DNA from: Bacteroidota bacterium
GTDB lineage: Bacteria; Bacteroidota; Ignavibacteria; Kryptoniales; JAKASW01
Length of the DNA: 43,741 nt
Direction of reading: 5' to 3'
Assembly (NCBI GenBank): GCA_023480735.1
Contig: JAMCXB010000042.1
Coordinates: 1 to 43,741 of the forward strand
Within the stretch, counting starts at the first letter, position 1; the number at the start of each line of letters is the position of its first letter. Positions 8,915 through 11,863 of the stretch are shown in pieces. The position numbers were made by a program, and so were the translations under genes. The notes under the pieces were generated by a model. That model ran no database searches, was not told the origin of the DNA, and worked only from the letters and a program-made list of their open reading frames with translations.

Positions 8915-9000
8915 GCCGGGGTGGCGGAATTGGTAGACGCGAAGGACTTAAAATCCTTTGGCCCAAAAGGGCCGTGCGGGTTCAAGTCCCGCCCTCGGCA
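8915..9000 (+). tRNA. tRNA-Leu (anticodon TAA)
   Basis: A full cloverleaf with a long variable arm as expected for Leu. Acceptor GCCGGGG pairs with CCTCGGC (one G-T), with discriminator A at 9000. Anticodon stem AAGGA/TCCTT encloses loop CTTAAAA, giving anticodon TAA at 8949-8951. The variable-arm hairpin (GGCCC/GGGCC around AAAA) and the T-arm with TTCAAGT are present. CCA is not encoded. Confidence 0.95.
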
Positions 9001-9018
9001 CGGTCGGATTTCACATAG

Positions 9019-9087
9019 GGGCGATTAGCTCAGTCCCGCTAACGCGGGATCGAGTCCTGCTCGAATCGCAGGACTCGATTGGTTTAG
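9019..9087 (+). repeat. tRNA-Val-derived copy 1: head and D-loop split by two palindromes
   Basis: Begins with GGGCGATTAGCTCAG, identical to the start of the intact tRNA-Val at 9269. After the AG of the D-loop, 45 bases are inserted (9034-9078) that form two perfect hairpins: TCCCGC/GCGGGA around TAAC, and TCGAGTCCTGC/GCAGGACTCGA around TCGAATC. The tRNA sequence then resumes exactly with TTGGTTTAG (9079-9087) and is lost. CAGTTCTTTTT follows at 9095-9105. It cannot fold as a functional tRNA. Confidence 0.8.
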
Positions 9088-9126
9088 GATGTTGCAGTTC
9101 TTTTTAGGTTTCGTTCTTGATATCTC

Positions 9127-9240
9127 GGGCGATTAGCTCAGTTGGTTTAGAGCGTCCCGAATCGACTCCGTCGAATCGGGAAGGTCAGAGGTTCTCCCGA
9201 AGGGACTACTACGTAGGAATCCCGATGACTCGGCTCACAG
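9127..9240 (+). repeat. tRNA-Val-derived copy 2: anticodon arm replaced by a 27-nt palindrome
   Basis: 9127-9154 matches the tRNA-Val head through the D-arm. The 17-nt anticodon hairpin of the intact gene is replaced exactly by a palindrome at 9155-9181: TCCCGAATCGAC/GTCGAATCGGGA around TCC, with one A-A mismatch. The tRNA sequence then resumes (AGGTCAGAGGTTC, 9182-9194). A second insertion follows, with GGGA/TCCC and CTA/TAG arms at 9202-9223. CAGTTCTTTT follows at 9238. It is not a functional tRNA gene as written. Confidence 0.8.
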
Positions 9241-9268
9241 TTCTTTTCGGTCTTGATTTAGAAACATC

Positions 9269-9343
9269 GGGCGATTAGCTCAGTTGGTTTAGAGCGCTAC
9301 ATTGACATTGTAGAGGTCAGAGGTTCGAATCCTCTATCGCCCA
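9269..9343 (+). tRNA. tRNA-Val (anticodon GAC)
   Basis: An intact cloverleaf. Acceptor GGGCGAT pairs with ATCGCCC, with discriminator A at 9343. The D-arm is GCTC/GAGC. Anticodon stem CTACA/TGTAG encloses loop TTGACAT, giving GAC at 9304-9306. T-arm AGAGG/CCTCT encloses TTCGAAT. CCA is not encoded. It is the only intact member of a cluster of four related copies and is followed after 18 bp by a GIY-YIG nuclease gene. Confidence 0.95.
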
Positions 9344-9361
9344 CAGACAAGTTTTAAGGCG

Positions 9362-9631
9362 TTGAGACCGGTGTTCTACGTCTATGTTCTTGAAAATGAA
9401 GCGACGCACCAGTTTTACACTGGAAGTACTGACGACCTTGCCAGAAGGCTTGACGAACATATTCATGGCAAGAGCATGTTTACCAGACACAGAGGCTTTT
9501 GGAAACTCGTCTATTCGGAAAGCTTCGAGACAAGAAGTCTGGCGGTCAGAAGAGAACTGGAAATCAAGAGCAAAAAGAGCAGGACGTACATCGAACGACT
9601 GATCGCTCGGCATTGCAAATCGGGCGATTAG
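9362..9631 (+). CDS. Single-domain GIY-YIG nuclease (UPF0213-like)
   Basis: 89 residues from a TTG start; a GTG three codons later is also possible, and the ribosome binding site is weak. The GIY-YIG fold is seen in FYVYVLENEATHQFYTGST near the N-terminus, then the Arg of LARRLDEH and a C-terminal Lys/Glu-rich helix (RRELEIKSKKSR). The family cuts DNA, and members are often associated with mobility. The frame reads straight into the tRNA-Val-derived copy at 9622: its stop codon TAG is the TAG at 9629-9631, inside the tRNA head sequence. It therefore lies exactly between an intact tRNA-Val and a modified copy, which fits a nuclease that inserted with or into a tRNA gene. That role is an inference. 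Confidence 0.85.
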   Translation: MRPVFYVYVLENEATHQFYTGSTDDLARRLDEHIHGKSMFTRHRGFWKLVYSESFETRSLAVRRELEIKSKKSRTYIERLIARHCKSGD

Positions 9632-9705
9632 CTCAGTTGGCTTAGAGCTTCCCGAATCGACTCCGTCGAATCGGGAAGGTTATCCCGCTTTGCGGGATAT
9701 CGCCT
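9622..9705 (+). repeat. tRNA-Val-derived copy 3: cloverleaf with anticodon and T arms replaced by palindromes
   Basis: Acceptor halves GGGCGAT (9622-9628) and ATCGCCT (9699-9705) still pair, and the D-arm GCTC/GAGC is intact. The anticodon arm is replaced at 9650-9676 by the same 27-nt palindrome as in copy 2 (all 27 bases identical). The T-arm is replaced by ATCCCGC/GCGGGAT around TTT (9682-9698). The result could still fold as a four-way junction but has no usual anticodon or T-loop. CAGTTCTTT follows at 9719-9727. Confidence 0.8.
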
Positions 9706-9840
9706 GCAGTCAAAATTGCAGTTCTTTCGATATTTGTTTGCAAGTTCGTCGGTTCATTAGATATGTTGGCGAACGCGATCCGGCCGACGAGCATAATTTT
9801 GTTCATAAGATAGGTTCTGAATTTGTTTGTTGAAAAACTT

Positions 9841-9940
9841 GTCTCTGGATATTGAGACGACGATCAAGAGTTTCGGATTTTGCCCCGCTGAAGAATGGGG
9901 ACTTTTACACCTGTCGATCGGAGGTTACTCCGATTTTTTT
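9841..9940 (+). terminator. Three-hairpin leader ending in an intrinsic terminator, just before thrS
   Basis: Hairpins in order: GTCTC/GAGAC (9841-9858), CCCC/GGGG (9883-9900), then ATCGGAG/CTCCGAT around GTTA (9917-9934) followed by six T. The last is a textbook intrinsic terminator ending 21 bp before the thrS ATG. It either stops read-through from the tRNA cluster or works as an attenuator of thrS. No T-box sequence is visible. The 136 bases between copy 3 and this leader show no gene. Confidence 0.65.
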
Positions 9941-9961
9941 ATCTTAGTCTGAAAAGTATCT

Positions 9962-11863
9962 ATGGCAAAAATAAAGCTACCGGATAATTCCACATTAGAA
10001 ATCGAAGTTTCTGTCGCAGCTTCGGAGATAGCGCGAAGAATAAGTCGTTCTTTATCCGAAGACGCGTTGGCCGTGAAAATCAATGGGAAAGTCTCAGATC
10101 TTGGCACTCCCGTCACTGATGACTGCGAGGTGCGGTTCCTGACCTTCGAGGATCCTGAGGGACGTGAAGTTTATTGGCATAGCAGCTCCCACCTGATGGC
10201 ACACGCTATACAATCGATTTTCCCCGAAGCAAAGTTTGGCGTGGGTCCGGCCATAGATGACGGTTTTTATTACGATATCGACATCAACAAGACGCTGACG
10301 CCGGCCGATCTCGAGGCAATCGAAAAGAAGATGCACGAAATTGCCGAGAAAAACGACCCTTTTGTGAGAAAAGTCATACAAAAGGACGATGCGCTGAAAT
10401 TCTTCGGAGAGAAACACGATCCCTACAAAGTAGAGATTATCAGCGCACTGGACGAGACGATTAGTTTCTACAGCGAAGGCGATTTTACGGACCTTTGCCG
10501 CGGGCCTCATGTTCCTTCGACAGGAAAGTTAAAGTACTTCAAACTCCTCGGCACCAGCGGCGCATATTGGCGCGGCGACAGCAGGAACAAGATGCTCCAG
10601 CGTGTATACGGCGTTTCGTTCCCCAAAAAGAAGATGCTTGACGATCACCTTAAGATGCTTGAGGAAGCCAAGCTGCGGGACCACAGGCGGCTGGGTCGAG
10701 AACTCGAACTATTTGTATTCCATGACATAGCTCCTGGAGCGCCATTCTGGCTGCCGAAGGGAATGATAATCTTTCGCGAGCTGGAGAAGTTCATACGGGA
10801 AGAGCTCGACAGGCGCAACTACCTCGAGATATCCACACCGATGCTCGTGAAGAAGGACCTCTGGGAAAGATCCGGCCACTGGGGACATTATAAAGAGAAC
10901 ATGTTCATCCTCGATGTCGAAGAGGACACCTATTCTTTGAAGCCGATGAACTGCCCTGAGAGCACCTTTGTGTATAGCCACAAAATCAGGAGCTACCGGG
11001 ACCTTCCGCTGCGCTATTCTGAAATCGGGCGACTTCATCGCAATGAGATCTCCGGCGCGCTTGGCGGCATGTTCAGAGTCCGGCAGATCACAATGGACGA
11101 TGCTCACATCTACTGCCGGCCCGACCAGATATTGTCCGAAATAAACGATCTTATCGGTCTCGTCAAGTACGTTTACGGACTCTTCAAATTCGAAGTCTCG
11201 TTTAAGCTTTCCACTAAACCGGACGATGCCATGGGCGACCCGCAACTTTGGGAGCAGGCCGAGGCATCCTTGAGACAAGCGCTCGAGCAAAACGGGATCA
11301 AATACGGCGTCAAGGAAAAAGACGGCGCTTTTTATGGGCCGAAAATAGACATCCAAATCAAAGATGCAATCGGAAGAGATTGGCAGGTCGCGACAATTCA
11401 ACTAGACTTCGTAATGCTTCCGGAGAGGTTTGACCTGACATATGCCGACGCTGACGGACAGGCGAAACGGCCTGTCGCGATCCACCGGGCGATATTTGGC
11501 TCTTTCGAAAGATTTATTGGAATTTTGACCGAGAACTTTGCTGGCGCGTTCCCGACCTGGCTTTCACCCGTACAGGCTGTTGTTCTGCCGATAACCGACA
11601 GTTTCAACGATTACGGAAAGATGGTTGTAGATGCGTTGAAAAAGGAGAATGTTCGCGTCGAGCTGGATGATCGCAATGAGAAGGTCGGCTACAAGATACG
11701 CGAATGGGAAACCAAGAAGGTTCCGTACATGTTGATTATTGGACAGAAGGAAAAAGAATCCGAAACTGTCTCAATCCGCAAACACCGTGAAGGCGACAAA
11801 GGAGCCATCGGGCTTGCGGAGTTCATTTCAAAGATAAAGAATGAAATAGTAGAAAAAACTTAG
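9962..11863 (+). CDS. thrS: Threonine--tRNA ligase
   Basis: 633 residues, usual length. Charges tRNA-Thr with threonine in the cytoplasm. Residues 1-62 are the TGS domain. The editing domain has HSSSH at 73-77 and Cys179/His183, so proofreading of Ser-tRNA-Thr should work. The class II catalytic core has the zinc ligands Cys331, His382 and His508 and motif 2 Arg360. The C-terminal 110 residues are the anticodon-binding domain. It heads a thrS-infC-rpmI-rplT operon, a common arrangement. The start ATG has a poor ribosome binding site and is preceded by a terminator-like hairpin, which suggests regulated expression. Confidence 0.98.
   Translation: MAKIKLPDNSTLEIEVSVAASEIARRISRSLSEDALAVKINGKVSDLGTPVTDDCEVRFLTFEDPEGREVYWHSSSHLMAHAIQSIFPEAKFGVGPAIDDGFYYDIDINKTLTPADLEAIEKKMHEIAEKNDPFVRKVIQKDDALKFFGEKHDPYKVEIISALDETISFYSEGDFTDLCRGPHVPSTGKLKYFKLLGTSGAYWRGDSRNKMLQRVYGVSFPKKKMLDDHLKMLEEAKLRDHRRLGRELELFVFHDIAPGAPFWLPKGMIIFRELEKFIREELDRRNYLEISTPMLVKKDLWERSGHWGHYKENMFILDVEEDTYSLKPMNCPESTFVYSHKIRSYRDLPLRYSEIGRLHRNEISGALGGMFRVRQITMDDAHIYCRPDQILSEINDLIGLVKYVYGLFKFEVSFKLSTKPDDAMGDPQLWEQAEASLRQALEQNGIKYGVKEKDGAFYGPKIDIQIKDAIGRDWQVATIQLDFVMLPERFDLTYADADGQAKRPVAIHRAIFGSFERFIGILTENFAGAFPTWLSPVQAVVLPITDSFNDYGKMVVDALKKENVRVELDDRNEKVGYKIREWETKKVPYMLIIGQKEKESETVSIRKHREGDKGAIGLAEFISKIKNEIVEKT

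Follow-up and report, generated by a model that had tools for sequence, protein, structure and literature searches.

The window, the whole 43,741-nucleotide stretch of DNA analysed here, corresponds to contig C36 in a genome of 2.8 Mb and 72 contigs (G000), which is Candidatus Kryptoniota-like (Bacteroidota). Of the named genomes searched, Candidatus Kryptoniota bacterium Ww171 has the nearest thrS, with 85% identity. A Leu-Val tRNA pair is present in 11 of the 12 same-genus loci, the exception (L015) being a Val alone close to a contig end. The terminator-like hairpin is also not peculiar to the window, as similar hairpins precede thrS in several relatives. The features between the tRNA-Leu and thrS are listed in Table 1. 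An Rfam scan of the window at gathering scores gave two tRNAs and nothing else, thus no group I intron.

Table 1. Features from the tRNA-Leu to thrS, in coordinates of the window
Feature	Coordinates	Strand	Basis or remark
tRNA-Leu(TAA), intact	8915..9001	+	ARAGORN, Rfam; opens the tRNA pair conserved upstream of thrS
Copy 1: tRNA-Val positions 1-15, 45-nt double hairpin (9034-9078) in the D-loop, positions 16-24	9019..9087	+	Sequence, folding
CAGTTCTTT in the spacer after copy 1	9095..9103	+	Also at 9238-9246 (after copy 2) and 9719-9727 (after copy 4)
Copy 2: tRNA-Val positions 1-28, hairpin 9155-9181 for the anticodon arm, positions 46-58, T-loop insert from 9195, degenerate 3' part	9127..9237	+	Sequence, tRNA-versus-flank comparison
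Intact tRNA-Val(GAC), equal to copy 3	9269..9344	+	ARAGORN; Rfam 73.3 bits
GIY-YIG nuclease ORF, 89 aa	9362..9631	+	PF01541, 55.5 bits
Copy 4: tRNA-Val positions 1-27 (one change), hairpin 9650-9676 for the anticodon arm, hairpin 9682-9698 for the T-arm, acceptor 3' strand kept	9622..9704	+	Sequence, folding
Terminator-like hairpin with T-run before thrS	9917..9941	+	By eye, borders approximate
thrS, conserved right-hand neighbour	9962..11863	+	ORF and relatives' loci

The original prediction held that four tRNA-Val heads occur here, one of them intact, and both points are borne out. Exact GGGCGATTAGCTCAG lies at 9019, 9127, 9269 and 9622, where shuffles expect 0.10 at up to two mismatches, and these four are its sole matches in the whole genome at up to one mismatch. 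Of the four, ARAGORN calls just 9269-9344 (Val, GAC) and Rfam agrees with it. The identical tRNA-Val(GAC) is found in eight other same-genus genomes.

The other three copies had been described as interrupted by hairpins. Hairpins do occur in all three, but the anticodon arm of copies 2 and 4 is replaced rather than interrupted, in both by the same 27-nt hairpin. In copy 1, the double hairpin splits the D-loop with a lossless junction as claimed, but the tRNA resumes for just 9 nt (TTGGTTTAG, 9079-9087) and then diverges. The folding z-scores are -4.48 for copy 1, -4.85 for copy 4 and just -0.26 for copy 2. CAGTTCTTT was rightly placed after each broken copy, at 9095, 9238 and 9719, the last lying beyond 9705 where the predicted cluster ended. 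It sits each time in the spacer ahead of the next unit, and we take it to resemble a boxA-like antitermination motif.

The ORF directly behind the intact tRNA-Val encodes a GIY-YIG catalytic domain, scoring far above the PF01541 cut-off of 22.6 bits. The ORF ends on a TAG (9629-9631) that the head of copy 4 provides. At the Val site, G000 alone has a PF01541 match among the genus hits searched. Copies at this site are more common, being found by the tRNA-versus-flank comparison at E <= 0.01 in 7 of the 13 genus genomes (G000, G002, G003, G004, G005, G007 and G011). A counterpart of copy 1 exists in G002 (locus L013), and its diverged versions are legible by eye in two more genomes, G009 and G012. 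The occupancy differs among the 13 genomes, also between close relatives. Of the 80 named loci around thrS, 35 contain tRNAs, 63 in all, and a partial copy (E <= 0.01) accompanies 7 of these, which means that the feature is by no means present everywhere.

We considered whether the feature is confined to the window and rejected it, as the same layout stands at other G000 genes and at genus and phylum loci. In G000, the sole set taking in every tRNA found in one genome, 12 of the 35 tRNA/tmRNA genes score copies. One of them (Thr) is a cross-hit to Gly copies, which leaves 11: Val, Gly, two Ser, Leu, Arg, Pro, Met, Ala, Gln and tmRNA. Four copies of about 146 nt each stand in tandem at its tRNA-Gly(TCC). 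Over all loci examined, tandem copies reach three at Arg and at Asp, and ORF-bearing units are found in tandem at Gln, Pro, Arg and fMet. The assemblies of the genus are drafts in 30 to 420 contigs, with N runs inside some arrays.

Several loci in these genomes show further arrangements. The tmRNA of G000 (L139/L149) is followed by a hairpin-split copy of its own 3' end, and more diverged hairpin matches come directly after the tmRNA in G002 (L204) and G005 (L202). L267 (G004:C40) has a series of three nearly identical tRNA-like units, spaced by about 106 nt, upstream of a fourth unit, which is an ARAGORN call without amino acid, and a GIY-YIG ORF comes next. The T-stem sequences of Val(TAC) and Gln(TTG) differ between genomes of one genus (L222, L218, L196; L224, L229), and at L222 and L229 the T-stem matches the neighbouring copy in the same genome.

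Copies were counted beside 165 tRNA genes from the window's own genome and the genus, class and phylum loci, part of which had been chosen for a GIY-YIG hit or a double hairpin. On the same strand, 90 of these genes have copies of their own tRNA nearby, in 140 tRNA-copy pairs at 128 distinct places. The opposite-strand control over the same 165 genes gave no copies, and the different-tRNA control gave 15 copies beside 9 genes. Some joined segments are chaining artefacts, such as one from window copy 1 to copy 2 and those running through an ORF. Most copies stop short of one or both tRNA ends.

The displaced copies are mostly interrupted, 101 of the 128 having an inserted or replaced internal segment of 11 nt or more, yet the intact tRNA persists beside them. 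Of 136 inserts, 117 have a better fold than 95% or more of their 60 base shuffles, and the tRNA sequence flanking the inserts is often 100% identical to the parent. Distinct copies lacking an internal insert number 27; 19 of them start or stop at a hairpin border while 8 do not or are ambiguous, as judged by hand.

The insert positions are far from scattered. Pure inserts past position 40 lie directly after the T-loop TTC in 33 of 41 cases; the other eight are elsewhere and some of these are chaining artefacts. This count used no preset band, since an earlier band of 17–19 nt from the 3' end (29/30 at 18) was circular. The anticodon-region junctions (n=65) are not uniform: 16–18 nt of the parent are lost in 25, of which 21 lose exactly 17 nt, with a hairpin instead, while 9 are pure inserts and others lose 6–15 or 19–21 nt. 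Here, replacement by a hairpin is thus commoner than interruption.

The T-loop insert forms a defined element. Copies of several unrelated tRNAs, and of tmRNA, have a related 42-nt double hairpin at one and the same T-loop position, and eight such inserts align over 61 columns. In a three-helix model comprising the two hairpins and the T-stem, 94.6% of cells are paired. Double changes keep the pairing in 9 of 21 pairs, which none of 500 shuffles reaches, although 3 of the 9 belong to the T-stem and reflect different parent tRNAs. A covariance model of this insert has matches in at least 9 of the 13 genus genomes and none in the other 4, in a scan that scored 150 candidates per genome, fewer than a first look found, so that matches may be missed.

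Strong double-hairpin matches (E <= 1e-6) keep close to tRNA genes, 31 of 35 having a same-strand tRNA or tmRNA no more than about 1.5 kb away by hand inspection. The other four comprise two at contig ends, one Arg copy about 2 kb from a tRNA-Arg and one (G011:C67) with no tRNA nearby. Some weaker matches in G007 are away from tRNAs. G007 also has a repeat at L208, L210, L211 and L212 with similar flanks (cccttgcgaaaatgtcccgctcc..GGATCCCTTCGGGAGAGTCC) and no tRNA in the fetched stretch, which is another hairpin family.

For the hairpins of the anticodon arm, a single mobile palindrome family was considered and dismissed, as their sequences differ between tRNA species. Perfect palindromes of the form TCCCGA-N(3-20)-TCGGGA number 40 in G000 and a reversed control pattern gives 0. 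Of these, 36 are away from the tRNA genes as a dispersed hairpin repeat of the genome, and therefore this hairpin type is not special to the element.

Small GIY-YIG genes often adjoin the affected tRNAs. In the 13 genus genomes, 84 of 119 PF01541 rows were used, after 35 had been omitted by eye as long frames (UvrC-like, fusions) or weak or partial rows. Among these 84 hits, 29 begin within 60 bp 3' of a same-strand tRNA call, two of the calls being doubtful: Cys(aca) and one given as ???. Behind 31 of 33 tRNA-adjacent or nearby ORFs is a match to that same tRNA at a loose threshold (E 0.5), and in 20 of the 31 the stop falls inside or beyond the start of the match; two of these 20 look spurious. 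The ORFs are chromosomal and small, with open frames of about 75–155 aa. The association is incomplete in G000, where 5 of the 11 copy-bearing genes (Gly, Leu, Met, Ala and tmRNA) have no GIY-YIG hit alongside and the hits adjoining Ser(GCT) and Pro are partial.

The tRNA-linked nucleases fall together in one group. A tree was built from 76 of the 84 hits, the 8 short or N-bearing ones being dropped, with linkage defined by a same-strand tRNA within 800 bp. A branch with 99/94 support splits 25 unlinked domains from all 39 linked ones together with 12 unlinked, some of which sit at contig ends. The unlinked small group is presumably of the UPF0213 type; such proteins are alike in domain and similar in size but branch apart from the tRNA-linked group. 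Separately, four GIY-YIG ORFs of the linked clade lie on one 20 kb contig of G007 (C20; L245, L247, L270), with no tRNA called in the fetched stretches.

Within the linked clade, the nuclease branches track the tRNA identity. Only 9 changes are needed for 8 states over 32 domains, against a mean of 20.9 and a minimum of 17 in 300 shuffles. This test took 32 of 38 labels, one per contig save one contig with two, and two labels (G001 Pro) were set by hand. As to phages, a search for homologues of the window ORF met weak matches in 14 phage records, none covering 80%, and so a recent phage origin is not supported.

The layout extends beyond the genus. Among the matches listed in the class search, a tRNA is present in 14 of the 27 loci fetched. 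With the window nuclease as query, at least 59 of 118 genomes match and, again among the matches listed, 25 of 28 fetched loci carry a same-strand tRNA. Copies passing the copy thresholds are held by 22 of these 28 loci, by hand inspection and with three loci repeating earlier ones. Remainders behind the ORF, or in mirrored form a 5' remainder ahead of it, recur in several families, as do TCCCGA-type hairpins in the anticodon arm or T-loop.

Two forms of the unit can be read across these loci. In the full form, an intact tRNA gene is followed directly 3' by a short GIY-YIG ORF and then by a displaced copy of the same tRNA's 3' part. In the mirrored form, a 5' remainder and an ORF precede the intact tRNA. 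A direct repeat of about 18 nt of the tRNA 3' end flanks the units, for instance at Arg(ccg), Val and Leu.

The repeated insertion first noticed at the Val site is real and larger than was described. The original prediction allowed for a simpler case, in which the hairpins occur here alone and relatives show plain decay. This is not what we found, because the related 42-nt double hairpin recurs in unrelated tRNA copies and relatives show the same; several tRNAs, tmRNA and relatives carry the hairpins. As for the predicted insertion of palindromes into tRNA genes, the hairpins have indeed been inserted repeatedly and not by chance, and the TCCCGA..TCGGGA type is dispersed as the reversed pattern is not. 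However, they occupy surplus copies beside an intact gene and not working tRNA genes, their sequences vary (TCC..GGA, TGG..CCA, TCTACG..CGTAGA), arms are often replaced and a nuclease gene is present.

Rickettsia palindromic elements, named as the nearest precedent in the original prediction, are short palindromes at many sites of bacterial genomes that include in-frame inserts in protein genes. They are like the present hairpins in being short and at many sites of a bacterial genome. They are unlike them in that surplus tRNA copies are occupied here, a nuclease is linked, and the inserts vary and differ by tRNA species instead of making up a single conserved dispersed palindrome family. The tRNA-linked GIY-YIG gene had been missed in that prediction, and therefore these elements are a weaker precedent than phage SegB.

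Integrative elements use tRNA 3' ends as attachment sites. The present units resemble them in that the tRNA 3' end from the T-loop on is repeated on both sides and that tmRNA is also a target. They differ in size, being only about 90–320 bp, and the GIY-YIG ORF is the sole gene seen when the units were inspected.

The nearest known system is SegB, a free-standing GIY-YIG homing endonuclease of T-even phages, which cuts inside tRNA genes according to the available text of PMC13096335. Free-standing GIY-YIG genes beside tRNAs are thus already known in phages. The same text reports that phage T6 SegB is needed for the tandem amplification of tRNA-segB units and that the segB 3' end shares microhomology with the tRNA (PMC13096335). 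Hence the likeness covers the GIY-YIG gene adjoining tRNA genes, the tandem units and the ORF 3' end overlapping tRNA sequence. As to the differences, SegB is phage-borne whereas the elements here are chromosomal, with small ORFs sorted by tRNA species, and hairpin-bearing tRNA remainders are not mentioned for SegB, 'hairpin' and 'palindrom' being absent from the main text of PMC13096335.

SegB favours the motif RAWTSGAAC, which was at 23 of 83 sites and is helpful but not strictly required for cutting in vitro, as given in the available part of PMC13096335. On the other strand it becomes GTTCSAWTY, the T-loop; this is our own reading and is not stated in that available part. The T-loop double hairpin falls inside GTTCSAWTY.

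Double hairpins have another parallel in mitochondria, where short, potentially mobile double-hairpin or repetitive hairpin-forming elements with conserved stems are described in the available text of PMC2800124. They share with the T-loop insert the two adjacent hairpins with conserved stems. They are organellar and mostly intergenic, with no linked nuclease or rule of tRNA-loop position in that text (PMC2800124), unlike the present ones. For chromosomal units with hairpin-remodelled tRNA remainders, no description was found in the open-access journal literature searched, most of it by titles and the openings of abstracts.

The observations appear best explained by minute mobile elements with tRNA and tmRNA genes as their targets, an account to which we give a probability of about 0.6. 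Observed in support are the architecture, its recurrence, the fixed hairpin positions, the tRNA-sorted nuclease clade, the variable occupancy and the tandem units; the cutting, the homing and the role of the hairpins are deduced from these. Reading the SegB motif as GTTCSAWTY and finding the T-loop hairpin inside it, we infer that the Kryptoniota nucleases may cut tRNA genes, that the tRNA flanks would serve as repair homology and that the hairpins would remove the target in the copy.

In such a cycle, the nuclease would cut a tRNA gene and the repair would copy the element in, using the tRNA sequence at both element ends as homology. This would restore an intact target tRNA gene and leave a tRNA remainder beyond the element. 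Within that remainder, a hairpin would replace the anticodon arm or enter the T-loop or D-loop, removing the recognition site. It might also shorten the homology that would delete the element. The units would then amplify in tandem, and those with no ORF could persist as non-autonomous or decaying derivatives.

The T-loop was considered as the sole target and set aside. Many remainders keep an intact T-loop and are broken just in the anticodon arm (Gln, Pro, Val, Lys, Asp). These remainders, together with the tRNA-specific nuclease branches, suggest that the anticodon arm is what other nuclease lineages recognise. The intact tRNA adjoining the ORF, however, keeps any tRNA-borne target, so self-protection is unexplained unless the recognition extends past the tRNA end.

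A broader form of this proposal can be put forward tentatively, as less likely than not. The elements may be phylum-wide tRNA-gene parasites of about 90–320 bp whose hairpin-remodelled fragments would act as a nuclease-immune homology arm. Separate lineages would be specialised for single tRNA species through the anticodon arm and for the universal T-loop.

The main competitor, which we consider unlikely, is that small palindromic repeats, akin to the Rickettsia palindromic or mitochondrial double-hairpin elements, move alone into the loops of tolerant surplus tRNA copies and the nuclease genes are bystanders. The related 42-nt double hairpin at one T-loop position in copies of different tRNAs and tmRNA would suit it, and so would the pairing kept through double changes (9/21 pairs versus 0/500 shuffles, with the T-stem share of 3/9 from parent tRNAs) and the dispersal of TCCCGA..TCGGGA in G000 (40 sites versus 0 reversed). 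But a repeat moving alone leaves the ORF linkage unaccounted for, anticodon arms are mostly replaced with hairpins differing by tRNA species, and 31 of the 35 strong double-hairpin matches stay near a same-strand tRNA or tmRNA. Less probable still is that the copies are functional tRNA-derived RNAs, such as decoys or elements for processing or attenuation within tRNA operons, which would keep a tRNA-like overall shape despite their swapped arms. Such a shape is seen in copy 4, which folds with paired acceptor strands and swapped arms, and by eye in a G004 copy (L006) retaining both acceptor strands with three remodelled arms; the commonest anticodon-arm replacement, removing exactly 17 nt (21/65 junctions), also agrees with it. 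Against this, most copies fail to reach both tRNA ends, the occupancy differs between close relatives and copy 2 folds no better than shuffles (z -0.26).

Ordinary tandem tRNA duplication followed by random decay would produce tandem copies, and these exist (Gly x4, Arg x3, Asp x3). Yet decay would scatter the changes, whereas the inserts are at fixed positions (33/41 after the T-loop TTC) between flanks often 100% parental; random decay is rejected because the insert positions cluster, and this account is very improbable. An artefact in assembling the metagenome-derived genomes would be conceivable from the drafts of 30 to 420 contigs and the N runs in some arrays. It is hardly credible when the same layout appears in other families, including genomes of one contig (G096, L329) and two contigs (G079, L332).

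Few targets in a genome are as conserved as the tRNA genes. If the tRNA-directed elements are what we propose, a chromosomal nuclease family sorted by tRNA species, accompanied by copies in which the anticodon arm has been excised and replaced at its borders, would let minute selfish elements persist within essential genes while sparing the host, in a manner that would be new. Such elements could also account for the small GIY-YIG genes and the unusual tRNA fragments seen in genomes of Bacteroidota.
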